From: Desulfobacterales bacterium | GTDB taxonomy: Bacteria; Desulfobacterota; Desulfobacteria; Desulfobacterales; Desulfosalsimonadaceae | NCBI GenBank assembly: GCA_018399455.1 | Contig: JAGYOT010000012.1 | Location: 1-12,908 of the forward strand | Direction of reading: 5' to 3' | DNA length: 12,908 bases | Shown here: one piece after another, positions 1 through 12,908 of the stretch | Numbering within the stretch: position 1 is the first letter of the stretch | Layout: each line of letters starts with the position of its first letter | Notes under the pieces: generated by a model | Told to the model about the DNA's origin: nothing | Database searches by the model: none | What the model saw: the letters and a program-made list of their open reading frames with translations, nothing else | Made by a program: the position numbers and the translations under genes

Positions 1-2242
1 CCGGCGAAACCACCATCCAGGACAGGGCCTTCATGTCCTTTTCCTCAAAACCGAGCTTTCGCATGTTCATCATGTATGTATGCGCAAAAGTCCGGAAAAC
101 ATAAAACATCCGGGCAACCTGGGCGGCCGGGTTGCTCCCTATGGCAAAATACGGAATGTTGCCCCGGTTATAGATGCCGTGGGAATCATCGGATACCTTT
201 TTGGCTTTCTCAAGCAGATCCTCCCGGGACACCTGCTTGTTTTCCGGCAGGGACCGTAGGCCGTTGTAGGCGGCCGTAATGGTAGCCACCCGGTTTAGCC
301 GCTCGGATTCGCCGAAGGTGAACATACCGACCTCAAGCGCCTTTTCCCACCCCCGGGAAAGTTTGGATTGAAGGATTGAAAAGGATTCCGCGTTAAACTG
401 CGGGTTGTCCCATCCATGGGATTTGATTTGATCAAACACCCACCGGTCCTCTTCGCTCAAATTTTTATAGTTTTCCGTCCGGAAAGCCTTGTACTTCTTA
501 ATGGCCCGGCCCAAATTGTCGGCCGACTTATGAAACGGGATGCCGACGCCGTGCATGGAGGCAGGCACCGAAGTAGCCAGGGCCGTCAAATTGACAAGAG
601 GCGCGGCAAACACCCGGAAGGCAAGATATTTTGCAACCGCCACACCCTTAATGGTGCCTATCACTTCATCGGCTAGTTCCCGGTTCCGGGTGTTTTCCTG
701 GACGTATGCCTTGGCCCACTTAAAAGCCTGGGGCTGCTCGCGCTGGTCAATCATCATTTCCTGGACCATGCCCCGGTAATTGGCGTATTCCCATCCCTTG
801 AGCTTTTGCAGTTCATTTTGCCTTTGTTCCAGGATGGCGGGATCTTCCTCGTTTTCGATCTCCGATTCCAAAGCCTTCGCCTGCTCGCGCTTTTCGGCCA
901 ACTCGTCCGGCCGGTTGTGCTTGGTAAAAAACTCCTTGTCGATAAACTCATTGTCCGGGTTGACCTGCTCGATAAAGTCCGCATATGTGCCGTTGAATTC
1001 CTGCACCTGCCGGAATTCCTGCCAGCTTACCAGCGTGCCGGTCATGGCGCGGAGCATTTTGTCAATCATCACCCGCTTGGCGTGGCCGCCGGACAGACTG
1101 CGAATGTATTTTGCAATGGCAATTTCCGGGTTTTCCTCGTATCCCTTATAATAATTATCGCCCCGGCGGGTCATGTGCGCCCGGCTGCCCCGCTCCCGGA
1201 TCACATTTGCAATCTGCTCGGACAGCGCGGAGGCGAAAATTTTCTCGGTCTGCTGCAGCATTTCATTGATGTCTGCCTCGACGCCGCCCTTCATGGCCTT
1301 ATCCGTCCTGTCCAGAGCAGCGTTGACAAGCTGCTGCGTTTTGACAAGCTCGCCTGCCATCTCAAAAACATCCTCGCCCAACTGCTTGCTCGGCCCGGTC
1401 TCAACCGAATAACCCTGCTTCCGCAGTTGAGCGGCCCGGTCATTCATGGACCCGCCAAATTTAAAGGTTTCCAGGATATTGTCGGCGCCCTCTTTGTAGG
1501 CGGTCAGAACGTATTTGCCCCGCTCGCGGATACGCGGGAAATAATAGCCCCGCATGTCGCCCATCATCGCCAGGGCTTCCTTCAGATCGACTTGCGCCGG
1601 CTGCCCGTCAACGACTGTATCCACCATCGGAAGCGTAACCCCTGATGCCTCGGCCCGTTCAATCATTTTCCGGTATTCAGCCATCAGCAAGTCAAAGCCT
1701 TTGTTCGTGGTTTTCCTGACCGCCATCACCGCGTTGACCTGCTCAGGCGTATAGCCGGCGTTTTTCATGTCCTGGGCCTCGGCCTTGAGCGCGGCCTCGA
1801 TTGCTTCCGTCTCGGTGGCAAAGGAATCAATCATATTATCGTTCGGATTATAAAGCTCAAACTGGCCTGCGGTCTCGTTCTCGCGCACCGTGTAACCCAC
1901 CTGATGCCGGTCCCGGTCAAGCAAATAATCCTGGAACTGTTTGAATTGCTGTTTACTGGCCTTCCTCAGATCCCTCATGGCCGTAACAACATTTGTGCCG
2001 TCCTCATGGTTCTCAAATTCAAAAACCTTACCGTGATAATTGTCCATGCGCTCCTGGGTCGCATCGAACAGATGTTTTACCGCGGGGATCTTCTCAGCAA
2101 AAAATGTAGGGATACTGACAACCAGATCCCGGAAGTAGCGCAGATCGGTCTTGCCCTCCCGGGTGAGCTTGACCGGAGACACAAACTCCTTTATGCGGCC
2201 AATGGCCTCAATGGAGTCTTGCCGAAGATTCTCAGTCGCCTG
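1..2242 (-). other. C-terminal helical region resembling LPD38/PLxRFG polyvalent-protein C-termini, partial
   Basis: Residues about 3556 to the window edge (4302). It is mostly helical, with recognisable blocks MRGYYFPRIRERGKYVLTA, FRVFAAPLVNLTALATSVPA, GMFTFGESERLNRVATITAA, RGNIPYFAIGSNPAAQVARM and FYVFRTFAHTYMMNMRKLG. The order 'GYYFPR..R.G.Y', 'NLT....P', 'E..NR..t...AY', 'R.....f..F..y....m..lG' is what I recall at the C-terminus of giant phage and element proteins annotated with large polyvalent-associated domain 38 or a PLxRFG tail. It is probably involved in packaging or delivery of the protein with DNA; this is inference. The PLxRFG element itself would lie past position 1. Confidence 0.65.
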
Positions 2243-5200
2243 CCGCTTCTTCTTCTTGTACTGGATATGCTGCTCGATTTCGACGGCGCTATCGTCAAAA
2301 ACCACATAATTGAAGGCTTCCCCCTCGTTGACGCCGGAGATAGAGCCGGTGGGATAACGGATGCCGTCGATGCCTTCTGACAACAAGTCCCTCGAAGCGT
2401 CTTGCTCGGAAGTGTCCAGCACCATTCCTCGGTATAGCTCCCGCCCGGTCGGGTCAGCCTTGGGATGAATGCTTTCAAGAGTGTCTTGCGGGAAAAAGTT
2501 TCGGAGAATCTCTTGAACCTGCGCCGATTGTTCAGATAAGGGCTTATCCCAATCCATCCAATTCACCTGATCCTTGCCTTTAAACAAGGTCACGCCATAC
2601 AGATTTCGTTTATGCGCATTCAACTCTTCCAGCATTTCGCGCCAGCCCTCGGCCTGACTTTCTCGGCCGTGCTTTTCCATGATCTCGATGTTTTCCTCGA
2701 TCATCATCTTGGCTTTGGCCGCGTCATAATCAGCCTCGCGTAACATCTGCATGGTGGCCGGGCTATATTCCGCGCCGGTCTCCGCGTAATGCTTGGCAAT
2801 CTCTTTCAGGTCGGTAAAGTAGAGGCCCCACCCAAAGGCTTGATTACCCTCACCGGTGCCGATCTTCTCCGTGCTGAATCGGTCTATTTCATGCGGGGAG
2901 CCGTGGAAAACGTGGAGTTTGTAAAGAGGGAGGTCTTGCTGCTGCCCGGCTATTCCTGTACCTTCGGGTACTCGCCGTTCTTTTTGGGCTTCTCCAGTTT
3001 CGGTCTTGGACAGGTAATTTGACAGTTCACGGTTGGATACGAACCCGTTTGTCGCTTTAAGCAGCCGATCAATATATCTTTCAATCGCCTGCCCCTCTTT
3101 TGCGGATTCGTATTTATAGGTTTCAATGGCCTCTCCTATTTGGTCGGCTATAACTGAGCGGATTTTAACAACTGACTCAGCCATATCAGCTTTTTTCTGC
3201 TTATTCAATGCCTGCCTGATGTCTTTAGCCGTTGCGGTGCCGTCGTCTATCTTTTGCAGCACGTCGCCCAGGGCCCCCTTGGCCGGTGCGGCCTCCGGGA
3301 ATTCAAGGATATTGCTGTATTTATCGGTCAATCGCTGATCAACAAGCCGGGCGGGGTCTTTGTATTCGGCCTCGGAGACCCTGCGGCTGTGCATAATATC
3401 CGGGTTCGCCCCATCAAACGCGCCGGTATTGAAGATGGATTTGATCTGTGTAGGCTCAAAGGCCACATAGCTGCCCGAATGATCTGCTTCAAAGCCTTCA
3501 ACTCCATCAAAGTCTGTTACATGGCCCCCAACGCGATCATCGTATAAATCCACATAAGCCGGATCTGTCTCGTTGGTTTCAAGTGAACGGTGCTGATCTA
3601 TTTTGACTTTGCCGGTCTGCTTGAGCGTCCTTTTTTGTTCAGCGGACAGCCGGACCGGTTTCTCGTGAATGTACCCGTCAAAGCCCTTTTCTTTTAACCT
3701 GTCCGTAATCGCCTCGGGCGTATATTCTTTGCCTTCCCTTGCTAACTGTTTTGTGGCCTCCGCAACGTCTTTTCTGGATGCCGGGTTTTGAATGGAAAGA
3801 TAAAAAGCCCGGGTTTCACTCCCAGGCGCATCGGGCCGGCCCCAAGGATGACGCCCGTGCATGTCTGCATCTTCCTGGTTCCCGGCAAACCAAAATCCCA
3901 TGACAGGAGCGTCAGGATCTTGCGGGTTGATTTTGCTCTTGTCAAATTCAGCGAATCCAGGCGTGGGGCTGCCATGATAAACCACCAGCGGTTCCCCCTT
4001 CTCATCAGCCACCTTGCTACCCTTAAACCACTTCCTGAAATTCGGGTTATCCGTGATCTTCTTAACGGCTTGCCGCAGACTAAAAGACGTGGGTTGAGCG
4101 AACTGATTGACTTGACCGGCGGCCGGGCTTCCCGTCCGGGCCAAGATAGACCGATCCGCCCCCTGCACATACCGAGCGCCCCGGGCAATCAACTGGCGAA
4201 GCTCGGCATTGCTCAAGTTCAAATCAATGCCGATCTTCCTTAACCCCTGCCGGATCATCCGGATTAATTTATCCAGGGTCCGGTCCTGGATGCCGTTCTC
4301 GGCCATGTGCGCAATGATTTCCCGCCCTGCCGTAATGCGGCCCTGCCGGGTCCGCAGGTCCAGGCCGTAGGCCCTGGCAATCCGTTCGGCCTCTTTGTGC
4401 TGAGAATGATAGACGTTCAAGAAAAGGTTGCCGGCCTTCTCCCGGGGAATGACCGCTTCAACACCATAATGGCCGAATACCTCATGGAGCATGGCGCTCT
4501 GCGCGTCCGTGGTGCTGGTAAGATTGTCGGCCACGAAATGAATCCTGCCCTGATGCCAGACGGCCACGACTTCGCCATGCGCCTGCTTGGCGGCAATGTC
4601 GCGTTGGATCACGCTCGGAAGCTCGGCCTCGGATTGGACAAACTCGACCGGGGGCGCATTGCGGAAGTTCTTAATTACAGGTTCAAGGTTTGCCCGGATG
4701 TCGGAGACAGGGGTGCCGGTGGGCCTGCCCCGCTTTTGAAACATGGGCATCCCTTCGGCCATGGCCTTCTCGCGCATTTTGTCGGTAATAGGCAGGGCGT
4801 GAACGGTGGTAAATTCACGTTGACCTTTTTTCTCTACGGTAATATTTTCAGCACGATCCGGTTCCTCTTTACGAATTCTTTCTAACGCTTGTTCAGCGGC
4901 CTTTTTTGTCGAATGCCCCTCAAGAGCAACCCCTGTCGCGGCCCTTAATATCCATTCTTCCGCTCCCTCAGTTAATCCTATTCTGCTCGTGCCAACCTTC
5001 GCCTTGCCCCACTTGCCTTTATTGAAAAACTTGTTGACCGTGGAGGGCAGCATTTTGTCGTAAAAGGCAATCATGCCATGACCGCCGACAGATAAGCCAC
5101 TCCCGGACAATTCGCCTTCGTCTTGCTGCATCATCTGGTTGGCAATTTCTTTTCCGAACACACTTTCAACTGTCTTGCCATTCAGCTCACCAATATTTGC

Positions 5201-8200
5201 GCCAGTGATGATTCCTTTATCCGCAATCGCTCCGTATGCAACAGTTTTGCCATCCTTTTCGGCGCTGAACTCTTTGGGAGCGTCTTTTTTTGCGGTGGAT
5301 GGTTGCCACCAAATTTCATCAACATTTTGCCGCAAGGTTTCTTGGTAGCGGTCGTTTTGCACTTCCCCCGGAGTCCATGCCAGCGTATCAAAGCCGTTTT
5401 CTGCGGCATAGCGCACCATGCGTTTCATAACGAGTTGCGGCCAGGTGGTCTTGAAGGGGGCGTCGGGGACGGCCCTGTCATTTACTCTGGCCCGCAGCAT
5501 TTCTTGGGCAGCTTGCCGTGTAAAGCCAATGCCCTCTTGTTCAACGCCCTCTGCTGTGGCGATAAACCGTTGCGCCCCAGAGACCCGGTTTCCCCTGTCC
5601 TCTACCTGGATAGCACTATCAGGCAGATTAAAAGTATACCCCTTCTTCCTGCCTTCCTGGTGCCAGTCACTCTGCACTTCCTCCAAAAACAGTACCCTTT
5701 CACCGTTCGGCCCGGTGCGCTCATTGAAGCGGACATGAGCGAGGACGTTTGGTTCATCCCAATGAGAGGAAGTATAATAGTCTCCGGCATCTGTTCCAGA
5801 ATGTTCTTCTTTGCTTGTTGCCCTTATTTTAACGGTGTCTGGCACATCCCCATTAAAATAATCGTCAAGCCAAGCCTGTATCTCTTTTTTGCTTGTTGAA
5901 TCTATATAAACATCGCCTGTTTCTGTATCTATCGCCTCATAAGCAATTTTACCTTGGACTGGCATTGTCACCAGCATTTCCCGGTAATTCTTGCCCCCAG
6001 GGAGCTGGTGTTGCCCAAACTTGGGCTGAATCCTGTTAAGAGGAATATCAGAGGCGGCTTTGTAAGCCTTATGACTTATTAGGCCGTCCTGTGAATAGTC
6101 AAAAAGTTCACTTTTATCAAGGGTATATGTGGTCCCATCTTGTCGCTGAAAGACATAAGTATGCAGACCATCCTCATCCACATAAGCGTCCACCATGCCT
6201 TCCGCTTTTGCAGCTTCGGGGATCTCTATACTGCCTCCCTTCTCAACCTCCCTTACCTCAAGCTGATTCGCCGCAAGATACTCCAGCACATCATTCTTGG
6301 AGACCTTGCCTTCCTGCTCGTTCAGCCAAGCCTCAAGCCCGGTCCAATCAATTTCATCCTGTTTAATACCCTGCGTTTTCTTGATCCGGGCAAGCAGGTC
6401 TTTAGCGGGCATGGCTTTAAAATCCATCTGTTCGACGGTGCGGGTGAGTTCGGAATAAAAGGGAGAACGGCGCTTATAGGCCACATTGTTTTCGCCCGGC
6501 AGGTCTATCCTGTCAAACTGCCGTTGGCTTCCGCCTGCCACGCCGACCTCCGGCCCTTTGTTAATTTCTGCGGCTGTCAGCCCCGCCTGAGCCCCTGCTT
6601 CCTGGTTGCCGGCATTGGTATTGCTCAGGGCAAGCAACTCAGAGTCAATTTCGCCAAGACGACGCCGAACCTCCTTTAATTCATCCGCCTGCTTGAATGG
6701 TTCTTTGGCAATCCTTTGGTATTCCTCTACGTCTTTCTCAAGTTTTGACAACTCCTTTTCAAACTTCTCCTGGTGGGACGCCCCGGTTTTTAAAATGCCA
6801 TTAAACGCTTTGGTCAGGTTTTGCTTTACTTTTTCAGGGTCCACACGGCCAAAACCAAAAGATTGTTCTTCAAAATCGCCCCGGACGTATCCCTCCATGC
6901 CAAGAGGCCCATTATGTCCGAACGCGATTTTCTCCTTGGGCTTTCTCGCCAGGGTAAATTTGTCAAAATTGGTGTCAGCCTGCACGGTAATAGTAAAATC
7001 CAAGCCGCCGGCCTTGGCTTTAAAGGTTTTGAGCAAATCATGCTTGGCGTCGTTTTCTTCCAACAATTTGCCGTACTGCTTCATGGTGAGGCCATGGATT
7101 TCATCTTCCAAATATTTTTGGAAGGCATCAATCTCAGCCTGTATCTTTTCGGCAAATTCCTTGCGGTCAAGGTTTTCCCCCTGGAACTCAATTTGGTCGA
7201 CCTTCAGGTCGGCAAAATTTGTGTCAAGGTGGGTTTTGAGTTTTTGCGCCCATTCAAGTTTTGATTTTACGCTATCTATTCGTTTGGGGATCAGATCTTT
7301 TTCCCGCCGGGCCTTGGAGACATTGCGGATATGGGCCTGCTGCGCCACACTTAATTCATGCTCTTTTGCCATCAATTCATTTTTCTCAAAAAGAAGCTGC
7401 CCGGCCTCCCCGGAGGTTGCTGCAGCAAACTCGGCAAAACTGGCCTGCTCTTCGGAGAAAGGATCATCAAAGGTCCGGCCGTCGATCTCGCCTTTCAAGA
7501 CCTGATCGGCAAACCGCTGTTTTTTCATCAGGCGGTTAAACAATACAGAGTCCAGAGTTTCTTTTGTGGCGTAATGGTAAATCTCAACCTCTTCGTTCTC
7601 ATTGCCCTGCCGGACAATCCGGCCGTCGCGCTGTTCAATATCCATGGGCCGGTCAGGAGGGTTCAGATGATGGGAGGCTTTCATCTTGGCGGCAATGTCC
7701 ACGCCCACCCCGAGCTTTTGCGTAGTGCCGATAATTACCCGAGCATCCCCGTTTCTGATTTGCTCCTTCATCCGTTCCTGCTTGGTCTCGCTGTTGCCGG
7801 CCTCAGCAAAAAGGACAACCTCGTTTCTCGGGATACCCTTTTCAACGAGCTTTTCCCGGATGTCCTTGTGGGCGTTAAATGTGGGATGCTTGGCATTGTC
7901 CTGAAAAATATCCAGGAACACAATTTGGGCGCTCCTGTCTTGCTCGGTGCGCTTCCATATATCATAGATATTGTCCACCGCCTTGCTGATCTTGCTATTG
8001 GGATCATTTTCAAATTGAGCCGGGTCCACCAATCGCAGATCAATGGCCGCCTTTTTTGCCTGACCATAAAGGAGAAGCGGGACATGCCGTTGATTTCGTT
8101 TTTCCTTGCCGGGCAGATCCTCCCATGCCTTCCATTGATCAAGAATATGCTGAATAAATCGGGTTTGTTCCTCGCTCTTTTCACAGACGACAATTGCCGG

Positions 8201-11200
8201 CTTCCCATCTTTAATGTCAGGCAGATCCAGGTTGGCGTCCTCGGTCAGCCGGATGTCAGCCCCGGAAAAGAACATGGTTAAAAGCTCCGGGCCGTTTACA
8301 TACTTGCCGAATCGCTGGACCTCTTTAAAGCCGGAAGCGGTCTCTTCAATACCTGTCGTGATTTCCCCAAAGGTGCTGGCGAAATCGTCAAACCGCTCAA
8401 CCCCGAACTCTTCCAGCAATTCCGGCCGGACATAACGGAGCATGGTCCAGAGCTCGGCCATGGTGTTTGAAATCGGGGTGCCGGTCGCCGTGATAACATT
8501 CTTACCCCCGGTCTTTGCCCGGACGTGCTCGCTTTTCAATATCAAGCTGGTACTGCGTTGGGAGGCCCCGCTGTCAATCCCCTTCACCTTGTCCATCTTG
8601 GTAAAGAATTCAGACCGCTTGTATGCGTGGGCCTCATCCACCAAAAGGGCGTCGATTCCCATATCTTCAAACAAAACGGCCTCGTCTCTACGGCGGTCCA
8701 AAAGCTTGTCGAGTTTTTGCCGGCGGTTTTCCTTTAGCCTCTCCAGGTCTTTAACCGTATAAGAATCCCGCCCCTCTTCTTCCACAGCCTCGGCTATGCC
8801 CTCGTCGATCATGTCAATTTGTTCCTCGACAAAAGCCCGTTCTCTGGCCGGGTCATTGGCAATGCCGTCAAAAAAGGATTGAGGCAATATAATGGCGTCC
8901 CAATCCCCGGTTGCCATGGAGACCAGTGTTTTCTTTCGCATCTTTGACGAACGCTGGCTATAATTGGGGACCAGCACTTTGGCCGATGGATACAGGGTTT
9001 TAAAAGACTTGGCGTATTGATCAATGGTTTGATTATGAGCGACGATCAGGGGCTTTTTCGCCGTGCCGATCCGCTTCATTTCCATGGCGGCCGTAATAAA
9101 AATAAAGGTCTTGCCGGTGCCAACTCCATAGCCCAACAAGGCGGATTCCTGAAGCGCCCGGGATACGGCTATTTTCTGGTGCGGCCGCAGTTTAATGGCG
9201 TGGGAGGCATTGGGGAAATATTCAATATTGGGTTCTGAATGAGTCCTTAAAACATGACCATTCTTTTCTTCATTATACACCTTGGCAAGCTCAGAACCCC
9301 ATTTTTCATGGGTTTTGGCCCAAGTGACAAACTCATTATCAATCTCTTTCATCTTTAATTGCGCCTCTTTGGAGGCGTCTTTGTCCTCTACCTTGCGCTC
9401 TCTCCCGGTAGCAGGGTCTCTTACGGTGTAGGTCGCCTTGGGCATTTTCATGTTCAATGCCTTATTGACCAGCTCATGCCCTAAGAAATATTGAGTGCCA
9501 AAAGTATCCTTATTTTTGGTATACTGCATGGGGTCGACATTGGGGGCAAGATCAACCGTCCACCGGGATGAAACATCTAAATAAGTGACTTGTGCCGGCA
9601 TTTCAAAAACTTCGGAAAAGAAATCTTCAACCACTTTGGGCGGAACCCAAGTGGACCCAAGCCGGAAGCTGATAAATTCAATATCCAAATCCTCGGGAAC
9701 AACCGCTTCCAGGGCTTCCACGTTTTTCTGATAATTCGGGTTCTCTTCGGCGGCCGCTTTTGCCACCGTCAGTTTTTTCTTTACATTGCCGGACAAATAC
9801 AAGTCCCTTTGCTCTATCATCCCGGAGTTTGGATTGATAAAGCCAAGGCCCTGTTCCACGATCTGCTTTTTGACTTCCTCGATGTTTTCCTTTCCGACAA
9901 GGGAAGCCACATAATGCGGCTGAATTTCGCCGCGGTACACAAGGGAAAGGTTGACTGCATCTTCAATGCTATCCGCAGCTTCGGGCTCGGTAAACGGATA
10001 AATGGTCCGGGTATGAAAAACAGGTGCTTTTTCATAGACCACACCCCGCTCGCTCTCTCCGTTCTTGTCGTCAAGCACTTTTTCTCTTTCCACTTCAAGC
10101 GCGTCAACAAGGGGGAAATCATTGTCCATTTTGCGAAGAAAGGAGCTGTTGGAATGGCCGAAAGCCTTATGCTTTTTGACATAGGCATCATATTGGTCAT
10201 TGAGATTTTTCTGAGCTTCCGCAATCTGCTCGTCCGTTGTCTCTTCGCTGTTCATCAGCCGGAAAAGATCATTCGTGGTCTCACGAATTTCAAAGTATGC
10301 CTCTAACTGTTCCTTTTTCTTTTTGCCTCCGACCTGCTTTTTCTCACCCTTGGAATCAATATAGAAGGGCTCTACCAGCCGGCCGTTGTCCACCAGATAA
10401 ATCTTGCCGTCCTCTTTTGTCAGAGTTCCTTCTTTGGCCCCCAATTCGGCAATCTTGACGGGTTCCAGGTGAGATATGTCTGTCCCCTCGCCGGCAATAT
10501 TCTCAGGGAATTGCTCGACTGCATCCTTTAGCTGTTTTTCAATATTGCCGGTTTCTTCCACGGTGTACTGATTGGGACCATACATAGAGCCGGTAAAGGC
10601 ATGTTTACCAAGGACCATTTCAGGGTTTTCATGGTAATAGGCGTTGACCTGATAAGCGCCCTGGTATTCTTTGAAAGCCTCGTTCAATTCTCTTTTGGCA
10701 ACGGCAATGTCGGCATCCATGGCCTCTAAAACCGTTTTCTTTTTGCCTGCTTTTTGGGCCTGCTTCTTTTGTTCCTGAAGCTCTTCTACCTTTTTAACCG
10801 CATTTAAATAATCCTGTTCCAGCTTGTTCATTTCCGGGGTGTCAAGCGGTTTGGTCAGGCGAATATCCTTGCCAACGCTGGCCTGATTGCTGTCTTTTTT
10901 ACGGAACACCAAAATGTCGGTCACAACTTCGGTGCCGGCATTTTCCTTAAAAGCTGTTTGGGGGAGTCGGATGCCGCCGATAAAGTCCGCCTTATCGCTC
11001 AAGTATTCGCGGACCTTGCCGTTTGTCTTGGCGTCCATCGTCCATGAAGAGGTGATTGCGGCCATAAGACCGCCCGGCTTTGTTGCGGAAAGGGACCGGG
11101 CAAGAAAATAATTGTGCAGTTTCCAGCCGGAATATTCCGGATGCCGTTTGTCGCTTATGGAAATGTCGGCAAAAGGCACATTGGTTATGGTTAGGTCAAT

Positions 11201-12908
11201 GGTGTTGTCCAGAATCCCCTTGGCTTTTTCAAAGGGTGTCACCTGCACATTGGCCTGGGGGTAGAGTTTTCTCAGAATTTCCCCGGACAGGGAATCTTTT
11301 TCAATTGCGTAAAGGGCCGACTTATCGGCTATGTTCTGCGGCATCAGACCAAAGAAATGGCCTACACCAGCGCCGGGCTCAAGGACGGTGCCGCCCTTAA
11401 AGCCCAATCGTTCGGCCAGATCCCACATAGAATCGATTACCGTGCGGGAGGTATAATGGGCGTTGATGGTAGACGCCTTGGCGCTTTTCCATTCCTCGTC
11501 TGTCATCAGGCCGTCAAGAGCCGGATGAAGTCTTTTCCCGTACTTCTTTTCCCAGGTCTGGTATTTTTTTAGATCATCTTCGCGGAAAAACTGCTCAGGC
11601 GTGTATTTGTCCTTGAAATTGCGAACATAGCGGTCAAACTCATCCAGAAACACCTTTTGGGAAAAGGCGCCCCATCCAACATATTTGGCAAGGATTTCTT
11701 TTTCTTCGGGGGTTGGGTTGCGATTTTCGGATTGGAGCTTCTTTAAAAGCTGGATGGCGTCAATGTTGGCGCGAATTTTTCCTTCCGCGCCTTTGGGGAC
11801 AATCACATCATCCGGCTCAATGACATGATTTTGTTCTTCCGGGCTTAACGGTTCTCCGGCGGGTTCTCCGCCCACCTCCGTATCCTGAGCTCCACTTTCT
11901 CCGGTAGCGGTTCCTGTTGCTCCCCGTCGGTCGGGCCGATTGCGCTTGTCACCATCTCCACGATCTGGTCTTGTGCCAGATCCGGGTTGTGCTGCAGCTT
12001 CGCCCGATACAGGACCGCCCTCTGGACCGCCCGTTTCATGTTCTGGAACAGCTTCTTCCGATTGCTTTTGAACAGTTCCGCTGTCCGCTTCGGCTCGTAC
12101 GTCAGCATCCAGTTCAGCCGGACGTTCCACCATTTCGTTTCCACCGGATTGAGCTTGATGTCCTCCGGCTTCTTCTGATTGAGTTCCTGAAGTGTCGGCT
12201 CTCTCATCGCCTTTTACCTCTCCCTCTACTTCTAAAGTACCAGCATCTTGAGTTTTGTCAAGCTGTTCCTCGGTTATATTCTCCGGGGCCGTCATGCCCT
12301 CGGAATTAAACCCAGGGTAATGGCGCACGGCCTCGTACCAGCTCCGCAAATAGGGCTTTACCGCATCCCCCAGGTCACTGATCATGGCTTTGGAATAGGC
12401 CCCAAAAGACCGGGCGCCGGCCTCAATGTGGTAGCCGGCAAGCTGGATGCCTGCCTGCACCATTTCCGGGTCCAGGCCCGTACTGACCTGACCGAGTTTT
12501 TTGCGGAGAAGCTCTCGGGCTTTGTCGGCGGCGTCTTTGGTAAAGACCTTGTTGTTTTCGCCGTAAGCGGATTTTTCGGGGGCCGCCTCTTCCTCGGATG
12601 CCGGCGCCTCGACCTTTTTAAAATCAGTCACATTAAAGGACAGGTTCCCTTTGCCCTCTAATTTGACCTTTTCGCCATTGGACCATGTAACCTTTAAGGG
12701 GTCTTTCCCATAAACATCCGTATCTCTTACAGCCTGGACGTAATCACCGGCCTCAATTTTGGGCGTTTCAGTTTCAGCCGGCGCCGCCTGCTCCTGTGCA
12801 GGCAACCCCGCCTTCGGATGCGGCAGTTTTTCCCCGCGTTCATTCGCAGCCCGGTTTTCTTCTCGCTTCACCTGCTCGTTATAATCCGGTGAAGCCAGCT
12901 TCTTTTCT
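1..12908 (-). CDS. Giant polyvalent protein (DNA methyltransferase, SNF2 helicase, metallopeptidase, two ADP-ribosyltransferases), partial at both ends
   Basis: One minus-strand frame is stop-free for 4302 codons (complete codons 12907 to 2), giving at least about 475 kDa of protein with neither end in view. Translated domains in order are a helical module, an N6-type DNA methyltransferase, an SNF2-family helicase, a phage HWDEPN module, a zincin metallopeptidase, two ART domains and a long helical C-terminal region. This architecture defines the polyvalent proteins of phages and conjugative elements; the methyltransferase-helicase half resembles phage P1 DarB, which travels with phage DNA and blocks type I restriction. 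A role as an injected or transferred protein protecting invading DNA and modifying host proteins is inferred. Codons are mixed, with CGG, GGC, CTG and AAG frequent, and the domain motifs follow in register throughout, so no frameshift is evident. The absence of any gene boundary over 12.9 kb is itself strong evidence, and the long opposite-strand frames are explained by it. Family is certain; host and exact role are not. Confidence 0.97.
545..661 (-). other. Hydrophobic segment in the C-terminal region
   Basis: Residues 4083-4121, from IGTIKGVAVAKYLAFRVFAA through PLVNLTALATSVPASMHGV, are almost free of acidic residues and strongly hydrophobic. They lie in an otherwise highly charged helical region. 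They could be a buried helix pair or a membrane-active segment; the single Arg and two Lys make a classical membrane helix uncertain. Confidence 0.4.
2243..2936 (-). other. ADP-ribosyltransferase domain 2 (ART-PolyVal type)
   Basis: Residues about 3324-3555. It opens LYKLHVFHGSPHEIDRFSTE with H3335, then IGTGEGNQAFGWGLYFTD (Y3363) and KEIAKHYAETG. The C-terminal part is ELYRGMVL, SEGIDGIRYPTGS and FNYVVFDDSAVEIEQHI. This FHGSPH.FDRFS.E.IGTGEG...(G/Y)GLYF signature is characteristic of phage-encoded ARTs. It is clearly distinct from domain 1: the second motif is GWGLYFTD rather than GFWFAGN, and the last motif is VEIE rather than TQIKS. The two were therefore probably acquired separately or diverged long ago. 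It ends in a lysine run encoded by four AAG codons (2257-2246). Confidence 0.85.
2937..3385 (-). other. Helical spacer between the two ADP-ribosyltransferase domains
   Basis: Residues about 3175-3323. It contains RLVDQRLTDKYSNILEFPEA, GALGDVLQKIDDGTATAKDI and IADQIGEAIETYKYESAKEG, followed by a polar linker (TETGEAQKERRVPEGTG). Helices are likely and no catalytic motif is seen. Related spacers often contain recurring polyvalent-associated helical modules, but I cannot name one. Confidence 0.5.
3386..4090 (-). other. ADP-ribosyltransferase domain 1 (ART-PolyVal type)
   Basis: Residues about 2940-3174. The N-terminal helix NPNFRKWFKGSKVADEKGEP precedes LVVYHGSP (H2978), the NAD-binding His strand of this ART family. 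GFWFAGNQEDADMHG fills the second motif. The C-terminal motif is VAFEPTQIKSIFNTGAFD and ends in NPDIMHS, with Q3154. It matches the widespread YHG...F.EFD...WF(S/A) and (E/D)P.QIKS...N.G.F...NPDI pattern. ARTs transfer ADP-ribose from NAD to protein or nucleic acid targets; host modification is inferred. The usual catalytic Glu is not obvious in the last motif, where Gln-Ile-Lys stands instead, as in many members with this signature. Confidence 0.82.
4154..4717 (-). other. Zinc metallopeptidase domain of the polyvalent-protein type
   Basis: Residues about 2731-2918. The key element is SAMLHEVFGHYGVEAV with H2808, E2809 and H2813. The spacing is HExxxH, one residue longer than the classic HExxH zincin motif, as in the HE..GHYGL motif of peptidases in phage polyvalent proteins. 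The probable third ligand region is GREIIAHMAENG, with E2863 and E2870 as candidates, in the place where the family has an E..A.(L/M)AE helix. The helical tail KLIRMIRQGLRKIGIDLNLS and NAELRQLIARGARY is also typical. Likely roles are processing of the giant protein or cleavage of a host protein after entry; both are inference. Confidence 0.82.
4742..6040 (-). other. Phage HWDEPN module with two lineage-specific insertions
   Basis: Residues about 2290-2723. Conserved blocks are QLPGGKNYREMLVTMP (Q2301), SSHWDEPNVLAHVRFNERTG (H2382, W2383), LFLEEVQSDWHQEGRKKG (W2415), PFKTTWPQLVMKRMVRYAAE followed by NGFDTLAWTPGEVQNDRY, GMIAFYDKMLP (Y2616) and the terminal VHALPITDKMREKAM and GMPMFQ (F2723). 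This block order is familiar from phage tail-associated and polyvalent proteins, where it often precedes peptidase or ART domains. A transferase-like or GNAT-like fold has a comparable layout, but I cannot assign a reaction. Two extra segments, at about 2317-2379 and 2651-2694, interrupt the usual order. Confidence 0.7.
5771..5959 (-). other. Inserted segment (module A) inside the HWDEPN module
   Basis: Residues about 2317-2379 separate NYREMLVTMP from SSHWDEPN, which are normally nearly adjacent. The segment contains GKIAYEAIDTETGDVYIDST and SKKEIQAWLDDYFNGDVPDT, suggesting a beta hairpin plus helix. Codon use differs from the flanks: ATA, ACA, TCA, AGG, GGA and GCA are common, consistent with later acquisition. 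Function unknown. Confidence 0.5.
6239..6466 (-). other. SPFYS helical module of phage polyvalent proteins
   Basis: Residues 2148-2223 start SPFYSELTRTVEQM, then MPAKDLLARI, TGLEAWLNEQEGKVSKNDVLEYLAANQLEVREVEKG. A module of the form SPFYS..E.....W.GL..WL...GKV.K.E.L.FL..N...V.EV recurs in large phage proteins, usually directly before the YR(E/G)..HWDEPNVLAH module, as it does here. It follows a short Gly/Ala-rich linker (about 6467-6607). It is helical with no catalytic residues that I can assign, and its function is unknown. Confidence 0.6.
6608..7477 (-). other. Helical and coiled-coil extension after the helicase
   Basis: Residues about 1811-2100. Long heptad-like stretches include LFEKNELMAKEHELSVAQQ and KFEKELSKLEKDVEEYQRI, ending RRRLGEIDSELLALSN (N2096). 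Between them is a short globular-looking part (LDFTITVQADTNFDKFTLAR, then MEGYVRGDFEEQSFGFGRV). An extension of this kind is usual after the helicase in this family. It probably acts as an arm or oligomerisation element; no catalytic motif is visible. Confidence 0.6.
7478..9205 (-). other. SNF2/SF2-family helicase domain (DarB-like)
   Basis: Residues about 1235-1810 carry a full helicase motif set. LRPHQ (1240-1244) precedes Walker A GVGTGKT (1261-1267). Walker B is DEAH (1424-1427) in LLVDEAHAYKR. Motif III is TATGTPISNTMAELWTM from T1473. The second RecA lobe has motif V IIGTTQKLGVGVDI (G1727) and motif VI QRDGRIVRQGN (1759-1769) with both expected arginines. All catalytic residues are intact, so an active ATP-driven DNA translocase is expected. 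The combination with the upstream methylase is the DarB arrangement, in which the pair blocks type I restriction. A charged helical insertion lies between Walker A and DEAH (about 1345-1415). Confidence 0.95.
9206..10889 (-). other. Connector between methyltransferase and helicase, with coiled coil and conserved YLSGN block
   Basis: Residues about 673-1234. A lysine/glutamate-rich coiled coil (PEMNKLEQDYLNAVKKVEEL through ADIAVAKRELNEAF) follows the methylase. Further on are LSLVYRGEIQPHYVASLVGK, the block LYLSGNVKKKL (L1038 at 9796) and FRLGSTWVPPKVVEDFF (W1087 at 9649-9647). The latter two match the conserved 'YLSGNVR.KL' and 'LGA.WIP...V..F' blocks that I recall in the same position of DarB-like and plasmid methylase-helicase proteins. 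They therefore belong to the conserved enzyme core rather than to a free linker. Their specific function is not known to me. Confidence 0.7.
10890..11785 (-). other. N6-adenine-type DNA methyltransferase domain (DarB-like)
   Basis: Residues about 375-672. The domain opens with the helix KYVGWGAF (GWGA at 411-414), matching the YVGWGG element that precedes the methylase in phage and plasmid methylase-helicase proteins. Motif I, the SAM-binding loop, is VLEPGAGVGHFF (508-519). The catalytic motif IV is DLTITNVPFAD with NVPF at 576-579, where classical N6 enzymes have (D/N)PP(Y/F). The Val variant is, as I recall it, usual in this family. Later blocks RSLSATKPGGLMAAITS and GTEVVTDILVFRKK are typical beta strands 5-7. 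Known relatives are thought to modify or shield incoming DNA against restriction; the target sequence cannot be read from here. The helicase that normally accompanies it follows in the same chain. Confidence 0.9.
11845..12207 (-). CDS. Nested 120-codon reading frame overprinted on the giant gene's linker (hypothetical protein)
   Basis: In the +1 frame relative to the giant gene an ATG at 12207-12205 opens 120 codons ending in TAA (11847-11845). An in-frame TAA sits two codons upstream (12216-12214), so this is a bounded frame, not a leftover of a longer one. A Shine-Dalgarno-like GGGAGAGG (12224-12217) lies 9 bases before the ATG. The predicted protein looks foldable: mildly basic, helix-prone, four tryptophans (W26, W27, W33, W112), with blocks such as ETKWWNVRLNWMLTYEPKR, KKLFQNMKRAVQRAVLYRAK and DLAQDQIVEMVTSAI. 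By hand count 95 of its 120 codons end in G or C (79%), while the giant frame over the same bases has about 35% and is low-complexity. I do not recognise its family. It may be an expressed nested gene, an engulfed former gene, or less likely a pair of compensating assembly errors. Confidence 0.5.
   Translation of the reverse strand: MREPTLQELNQKKPEDIKLNPVETKWWNVRLNWMLTYEPKRTAELFKSNRKKLFQNMKRAVQRAVLYRAKLQHNPDLAQDQIVEMVTSAIGPTDGEQQEPLPEKVELRIRRWAENPPENR
12208..12224 (-). promoter_or_regulatory. Shine-Dalgarno-like site for the nested frame
   Basis: Reading on the minus strand, GGGAGAGG (12224-12217) is followed by a 9-base spacer TAAAAGGCG and then ATG (12207-12205). The spacing is normal for bacterial ribosome binding and the upstream TAA in the same frame falls inside the spacer. 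In the giant frame these bases encode Glu, Gly, Glu and Val, so purine-rich sequence could occur by chance. No promoter for the nested frame was identified. Confidence 0.4.
12311..12553 (-). other. Conserved helical module of phage/plasmid polyvalent proteins
   Basis: Residues 119-199 begin NKVFTKDAADKARELLRKKL and continue through LDPEMVQAG, LAGYHIEAGARSFGAY, MISDLGDAVKPYLRSWYEAV. From memory, a nearly identical pattern (VFT.DAA..AR..L..KLGQ..G.DPE....G..LAGYHIE.GAR.F..Y...MI.DLGDAVKPYL.SWY) recurs in very large methylase/helicase proteins of mobile elements. It is all-helical by pattern and has no obvious catalytic residues. Its function is unknown to me; an adaptor or DNA-binding role is guesswork. 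It lies directly N-terminal of the disordered linker that contains the nested reading frame. Confidence 0.6.
12608..12757 (-). other. Possible small beta-rich (SH3-like) domain in the giant protein
   Basis: Residues about 51-100 alternate hydrophobic and charged positions: GDYVQAV, then LKVTWSNGEKVKLEGKG, then LSFNVTDFKKVE. The pattern suggests four or five short beta strands. They sit between two Pro/Ala/Glu-rich linkers, which argues for a separate folded unit. Small SH3-like domains are common beside DNA enzymes, but no diagnostic residue is visible and I do not recognise a specific family. The region N-terminal to it (12758-12907) is charged linker. Confidence 0.35.

Follow-up and report, generated by a model that had tools for sequence, protein, structure and literature searches.

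A probable overprinted gene, conserved among relatives, in the linker of a DarB-like polyvalent giant gene

The closest described counterparts of the locus studied here are the DarB-like polyvalent proteins of Bcep22-like and related podoviruses (BcepIL02, JC1, PEp14, LASTA, Parlo), which have the same giant-gene type with an N-domain, a linker and enzyme modules. The locus lies in a 12,908-nucleotide stretch of DNA from a Desulfobacterales bacterium (contig JAGYOT010000012.1; the whole stretch is called the window below). Inside the linker of its giant gene, a 120-codon open reading frame (ORF) at 11845-12207 of the minus strand is, with high probability as judged by sequence comparison, a real and conserved gene, overprinted on a giant gene of DarB type that belongs to a phage or prophage. 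The linkers of all five phages named above hold nested genes too, and in the stretches examined of Bcep22-like and related DarB records the nested gene has no coding sequence (CDS) annotation.

Rz/Rz1 spanins differ in protein and in function from the nested genes described here. Their layout is alike in that a small phage gene lies entirely within another (partial text of PMC9144972); unlike Rz/Rz1, the outer gene here is a giant multidomain gene and the nested type varies with the downstream enzyme. In phage P1, iddB (L184:26577-26975) is an annotated gene inside a gene of the Dar system, ddrB, but it lies on the opposite strand to ddrB and has no similarity to the nested families A and B defined below. 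The small P1 head protein Ulx is listed as aiding DarB localization (partial text of PMC9024508), and differs in being encoded by a separate gene past the 3' end of darB. P1 Ulx, DdrA, Hdf and IddB were ruled out as homologues of families A and B, since hidden Markov models (HMMs) gave no similarity. In the available parts of the open-access literature searched (PMC9144972, PMC5512222, PMC9024508, PMC11879866, PMC6606913, PMC3158075), a set that does not cover the original Bcep22/BcepIL02 and P1 Dar papers, we found no report of a nested gene within any gene of the DarB-like or polyvalent kind; the available text of the JC1 and Parlo papers has the word 'embedded' once each, of spanin genes (PMC9144972, PMC6606913). 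According to PMC9144972, proteins of the JC1 virion have been identified, among them the DarB-like one. The remark of an earlier note on this DNA, that overprinted genes in polyvalent ORFs are undescribed, fits the search within those limits. To our knowledge, when one gene is fully enclosed by another of the same strand, the usual bacterial gene callers leave it uncalled. According to the accessible part of PMC8665328, long overlaps are disallowed by standard annotation programs except in viruses.

The earlier note gave no strand for the nested frame, which is on the minus strand. Re-reading of this strand bore out the layout given there (TAA, two codons, ATG, 119 further codons and TAA, with a Shine-Dalgarno (SD)-like site 9 bases ahead). 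From 12224 to 11845 the order is GGGAGAGG (12224-12217), TAA AAG GCG (12216-12208), ATG at 12207, 120 codons, and a TAA ending at 11845. As the TAA at 12214..12216 is in the nested frame, this frame is no continuation of the upstream domain. A complete ORF within another gene, in a different frame, is the layout of a same-strand overprinted gene.

Homologues of the window product exist in related elements, and the linkers of these relatives carry both the frame and its ATG, which is the layout of the first option in the earlier note, a true nested gene in a polyvalent-protein gene. Among 395 genomes of the phylum, the sole relative besides the window's own was a 121-amino-acid protein in genome G195, 33% identical over 98 columns (expect value, E, 7e-14 in a two-sequence blastp). 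A methylase search of 291 genomes of the order gave matches in three others (G572, G652 and G503). G572 has a 125-amino-acid relative of the window protein (36% over 67 columns, E 1e-9), and its methylase region is 59% identical to that of the window over residues 1-333 (44% over 568 columns by blastp). The G195 and G572 copies are both in the +1 frame of a giant ORF immediately ahead of the methylase, with gene-like GC and an SD site (AGGAG and AAGGAG, respectively); a second methylase locus in G572 has a linker that is not intact. G652 and G503 carry a short family A gene, the G503 protein being identical to that of viral locus L013. With the G572 protein as query, 7 of the 291 genomes matched, the window's own and G572 among them. 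The G635 copy is nested in +1 in a 230-codon remnant of a decayed giant gene, the G586 and G540 copies are free-standing, the G642 copy is truncated, and the weak G682 match, within a 323-codon ORF, was set aside. Frame relation, start and SD site are kept in the window-family homologues of G195, G572 and G635. Weak matches in 15 genomes besides the own one among 60 (E 0.009-0.85) and in two plasmid records (E 0.2 and 0.3) were also set aside. The whole G586 copy (L202) and the start-truncated G642 copy (L205) stand behind a 699-codon ORF, with no covering giant ORF; this ORF, from two genomes of one genus, resembles by eye a translation elongation factor.

The window methylase had no relative in 35 other genomes of the source family, and pattern scans of viral_contigs and genome_contigs confirmed none, so the N-domain was taken as bait instead. 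This bait found 14 viral loci and one plasmid record, along with 38 phage records, a number that includes RefSeq copies. We read 39 loci (L010-L048; L049 was left out), made up of the 14 viral loci, 24 of the 39 bait records, and Vibrio phage VvAW1, which was found by family A. Two families of small proteins were recognised in the linkers. Family A starts with MNLNxWxxQARxHWKExxP... and includes a Bcep22-like form and the short form of L010-L013; family B starts with MYQVPxxxWNxIA... and is the family found in phage Skulduggery, which infects Pseudomonas fluorescens SBW25. A +1-nested family A or B gene occurs in the linker of 26 of the 39 loci (19 of 25 named, 7 of 14 viral), a count that takes in five of the six loci assigned to A by position (L024, L028, L034, L043-L045) and leaves out L034. 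A core family A HMM built without these six recovered the five with E between 3e-4 and 0.014, and matched L034 no better than at E 55. None of the 25 named stretches has a separate CDS annotated for the nested gene, PBC5 having it inside orf33; the Itty13 stretch lists opposite-strand CDSs only, and the plasmid table is stated as incomplete. In the Itty13 record (Pseudomonas phage, L029), both CDSs annotated over the part of the giant gene lie opposite to the strand of the conserved protein.

A search with the small proteins alone, whose queries were themselves nested copies, gave 134 loci, of which 128 (111 of 117 distinct) were nested in +1 in an ORF of more than 400 codons; PBC5 (L077) is counted among the 128 though its small frame also continues the frame of the upstream part, and the window copy is outside the count. 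The six others are the free-standing L162, L164, L166, L176 and L179, and L058, which was counted as not nested and also lies in an open frame, of 245 codons. The sets used below comprise 93 family A loci (88 unique nested sequences) and 36 family B loci (34 unique), so that the counts 93, 36 and 129 contain repeats. Some of the viral contigs and named records represent one and the same phage, and the sets were built without truncated copies, L121-L124 or duplicates within L050-L183. The A4 scan returned four contigs only, all already in the locus set, and a family A search in plasmids gave no match.

The substitutions in both families follow the nested frame. Nested-frame identity was higher than giant-frame identity in 116 of 116 family A comparisons (14/14, 14/14, 8/8, 16/16, 26/26 and 38/38 over six identity bins) and in 36 of 37 for family B (3/4, 5/5, 3/3, 6/6, 11/11 and 8/8), pairs being independent inside each bin while sequences recur across bins. 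Differences at nested positions 1, 2 and 3 in the 0.8-0.9 bins numbered 157, 128 and 347 in family A and 60, 45 and 139 in family B. The differences concentrate at nested wobble positions. In every bin the fewest were at nested position 2, which is giant position 3, the opposite of the pattern for a region coding only in the giant frame. We also compared the flanks, in pairs whose nested identity was 0.75-0.985 and whose flanks were complete and free of stops. For family A (22 pairs) the per-site change at nested positions 1, 2 and 3 was 0.066, 0.059 and 0.166, against 0.076, 0.054 and 0.276 in the downstream giant flank and 0.220, 0.196 and 0.352 in the upstream one. The values for six family B pairs were 0.061, 0.051 and 0.124 (nested), 0.097, 0.084 and 0.231 (downstream) and 0.126, 0.114 and 0.241 (upstream). 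By these rates, conservation of the nested protein is roughly that of the methylase side, and the slowed change at its wobble positions is what dual coding predicts. On this pattern, purifying selection acts on the nested frame in families A and B. Neutral substitution in the nested frame, which the earlier note had held out as a sign against a gene, is thus not seen in these families, where it was measured, as distinct from the window family.

The giant frame is likewise kept. It is open across all 129 nested genes where synonymous resampling gives 28.1 expected, a count that is partly so by construction, the unselected figure being 128 of 134. All seven free-standing copies tested (L162, L164, L166, L176, L179, L202 and L204; L058 and L205 were left out) have stops in the giant-frame register. 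For the window alone, a single locus, the probability of the giant frame staying open was 0.13 with pooled codon usage and 0.034 with its own codon usage. Taken together, the sequences indicate that both frames are maintained in families A and B.

Among other explanations, the one that survives best, improbable as we hold it, is that a once-separate small gene became part of the linker and has ceased to be translated in the window. Translation of the window frame is predicted from sequence, and the selection evidence comes from families A and B; moreover, free-standing relatives make absorption plausible, and one window-family copy sits within a decayed giant gene. Nevertheless, the window copy retains its SD site, its ATG and an unbroken frame of 120 codons, it has 16 invariant columns in common with two nested relatives that have diverged strongly, and families A and B combine purifying selection on the nested frame with SD conservation. 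The second option of the earlier note, a small gene absorbed as linker, is therefore divided: a dead gene is disfavoured by selection and by the kept start and SD site in A and B, while absorption stands as a history. Since free-standing copies exist, the giant frame may have arisen on top of a gene that was already there.

A start signal of its own is a regular feature of the nested gene. An SD match of at least 4 bases precedes 99% of the 129 nested starts as against 37% of 2,580 control positions handled by the same procedure, and for at least 5 bases the figures are 64% and 10%. The start is an ATG of the nested gene itself in 124 of the 129 loci. These signals speak against programmed frameshifting, in which ribosomes in the giant frame would slip to +1 and make a fusion of N-domain and small protein with an early end, and which we consider very improbable. 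In PBC5 (L025:3337-3645) the upstream domain reads straight into the family A frame, which then ends in a stop, as such slippage would have it, the methylase frame being open throughout the stretch; this difference may come from a natural indel or from a sequencing error in an old record. The nested frame is also open upstream of its chosen start, for a median of 21 codons over the 111 distinct loci, but for no more than 10 codons in 37 of them and for two in the window. Free-standing copies, too, are hard to fit to frameshifting.

The composition of the window agrees with an overprinted gene. GC at codon positions 1, 2 and 3 is 0.60/0.35/0.79 in the nested frame, 0.80/0.58/0.34 in the giant frame across the same bases and 0.59/0.37/0.59 in the entire giant frame; third-position GC (GC3) of 79% and about 35% in the earlier note was thus reproduced, and its 55% sample of the methylase region falls within the 0.54-0.60 of five stretches. 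Across the linker, giant-frame GC3 is 0.347, about 7 standard deviations under the 0.636 +/- 0.042 expected from synonymous redraws, the lowest of 5,000 draws being 0.496. Of the other off-frame ORFs on this strand that reach 90 amino acids, four in all, none has a gene-like codon-GC pattern. A chance open frame in a Gly/Glu/Asp-rich linker is a far-fetched explanation in view of this GC3 and of homologues nested at the same place in other genomes, even though a run this long is common when the linker amino acids are fixed: when synonymous codons were redrawn under an unchanged giant protein, 54% of 5,000 draws contained a +1 run of 121 codons or more, and a longer one, of 158 codons, occurs elsewhere in the giant ORF at 7773. 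The length of the nested ORF is for these reasons no evidence, and the argument from length was weaker than it had seemed; composition and homology, not length, place the frame beyond chance. That paired indels in an assembly error conceal the nested frame as the true giant frame is hardly credible, even for a contig from a draft genome of 651 contigs, given the stops on both sides, the own start, and the recurrence of the layout in 111 distinct nested sequences and in complete phage genomes.

The nested type goes with the enzyme encoded downstream. A methylase follows in 93 of 93 family A loci and in none of 36 family B loci; the helicase-type motif [GA]TGTGKT is found within 500 codons downstream in 36 of 36 family B loci and in none of 93 family A loci. 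Upstream, the N-domain HMM matches in 99 of the 129. Klebsiella phages LASTA and ZX1, both Lastavirus according to their records, have N-domains 88% identical, and there is no match between their nested genes nor between the next 500 codons. The window and the 64-kb viral contig L010 are 87% identical in the N-domain and 35% over 312 columns downstream, and their nested genes have no direct match. In 58 family A loci, nested divergence was correlated with that of the downstream 400 codons (Spearman 0.84, partial rho 0.81, 0 of 500 permutations) and much less with that of the N-domain (Spearman 0.36, partial 0.14, 16 of 500 permutations); loci without an N-domain match, the six placed by position, short stretches and duplicates were left out. 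Because the nested type matches the downstream enzyme and nested divergence follows that enzyme and not the N-domain, the nested gene and the downstream enzyme module form, as these comparisons read, one exchangeable cassette in the relatives.

Several points count against this reading of the nested gene, besides the nested queries and the selected loci behind the counts given above. The length of the window ORF is unremarkable. Selection was seen in families A and B, and no close relative of the window copy exists at the DNA level. Searches with the window protein alone gave no match in Pfam, PHROG, viral contigs or phages, and none of significance to families A or B, with nothing above shuffles. 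The slot is not always filled, no A or B gene being recognised in 12 of the 39 loci (L014, L017-L020, L022, L023, L027, L034, L036, L037 and L038; some have other candidate frames), and the family A gene of PBC5 is in a different frame relation, in frame with the upstream part. An N-domain was not found upstream of 30 of the 129 nested loci at the cutoff used. Recombination points alone, without function, could explain the co-travel of nested gene and enzyme. Ulx is no sequence relative, the family A and B HMMs having no similarity to P1 proteins.

With an overprinted gene as the preferred reading, its translation would most likely start internally on the giant messenger RNA (mRNA), with ribosomes entering at the SD site of the nested gene. 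In relatives, association and co-divergence show the nested gene and the directly downstream enzyme module as one exchangeable unit, and the giant linker there is largely a second-frame read-out of the nested gene that mainly must stay open. The nested protein may serve the downstream methylase-helicase as its dedicated partner, whether inhibitor, chaperone or virion-loading factor, and would be made at its own dose from the shared mRNA, in the way Ulx aids DarB in P1; we rate the chance of this role a little short of even, and Ulx is a possible functional analogue. More tentatively, and with clear doubt, linkers of polyvalent proteins might be slots for overprinted partner genes. Each enzyme module would bring its own partner just upstream in the second frame, recombination in linkers would swap both and one mRNA would make both, a nested counterpart of toxin-immunity pairs or of P1 Ulx-DarB, and this would be the reason for low-complexity linkers. 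The data suggest a small, conserved and so far unannotated phage gene that moves together with the enzyme encoded directly behind it and perhaps also acts with that enzyme. If translated, it would be a gene type of scores of phages and prophages that is absent from the phage records examined. If the proposals hold, a small component would be added to Dar-type anti-restriction giants, their low-complexity linkers would be explained as second-frame by-products, and overprinted genes would move among genomes as cassettes with their enzymes.

The window protein is predicted to be all-helical, with helices at H21-37, H39-48, H50-73, H79-89 and H103-114 in a single-sequence model (mean predicted local distance difference test, pLDDT, 66.7; five models 47.5-66.7). 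Family A has five helices of similar lengths in the same order, as compared with this single-sequence model of pLDDT 66.7. The nested protein would be a distant member of a TnpV-like group: the window protein is probably a divergent TnpV-like helical protein, by a chain of homology that is not significant for the window protein alone. TnpV (PF14198) was matched by 28 of 61 family A members at E<=0.01. When ten proteins were scanned singly, L183 passed (35.5 bits, cutoff 27) and L119 fell just short (26.7). The window protein matched no Pfam family up to E 10, so the Pfam cutoff for TnpV was not reached. For TnpV of Tn4451, a role in excision is merely postulated in the accessible part of PMC3158075. 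A fold search of PDB gave none of 20 matches at E<=0.001, and one of BFVD gave one match, Q8W6J4 (E 5e-7), unnamed there, which we infer to be the PBC5 protein. The nested protein of PEp14 matches positions 2084-2173 of PHROG phrog_938, a profile of 2,185 positions called endolysin. PBC5 orf33 (record 26155-32712) has the same length as this profile, and the endolysin label is thus probably from another part of the giant protein.

The features of the window are collected in Table 1. One chain has a methylase region, recognised by tblastn relatives and not by Pfam, together with an SNF2-type helicase and ART domains, which makes the product a DarB-like polyvalent protein. The best tblastn matches of methylase and helicase, in plasmids and phages, are about 29-35% identical, and several phage records matching the methylase region carry the name DarB-like antirestriction. 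From the N-domain match to L010 and these domains, the window most likely belongs to a phage or prophage with a giant gene of this kind.

Table 1. Features of the window on the giant gene's strand.
Feature	Coordinates	Strand	Remarks
Giant DarB-like polyvalent ORF	2..12907	minus	4,302 codons, stop-free; both ends run off the contig
N-domain, conserved, upstream of linker	12296..12565	minus	87% identity to viral contig L010 over 90 amino acids; no Pfam match
Low-complexity linker of giant protein, covering nested gene	11831..12295	minus	limits set by the stretches used for adjoining domains
Shine-Dalgarno-like GGGAGAGG	12217..12224	minus	9 bases 5' of ATG; read in sequence
TAA in nested frame, two codons ahead of ATG	12214..12216	minus	read in sequence
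Nested gene (probable)	11845..12207	minus	120 amino acids and stop, +1 frame inside giant ORF; ORF and composition
Methylase region, downstream of nested gene	10202..11830	minus	tblastn relatives in plasmids and phages
SNF2-type helicase domain	8366..9148	minus	PF00176, 30.9 bits, cutoff 24.9
ART-PolyVal, better of two stretches	3428..4006	minus	PF18760, 88 bits for whole protein, cutoff 31.2

Nested-looking frames in L017, L022, L027, L034, L036, L037 and L038 had no relative among the loci compared, except identical L017 copies in L018 and L020. Five +1 ORFs of 87-135 amino acids with gene-like codon GC (L017:3397-3801, L022:11445-11768, L038:4499-4855, L036:3878-4147 and L027:3527-3787) sit in or beyond linkers of other giants, three of them with an SD-like site, and may be further nested families or chance.

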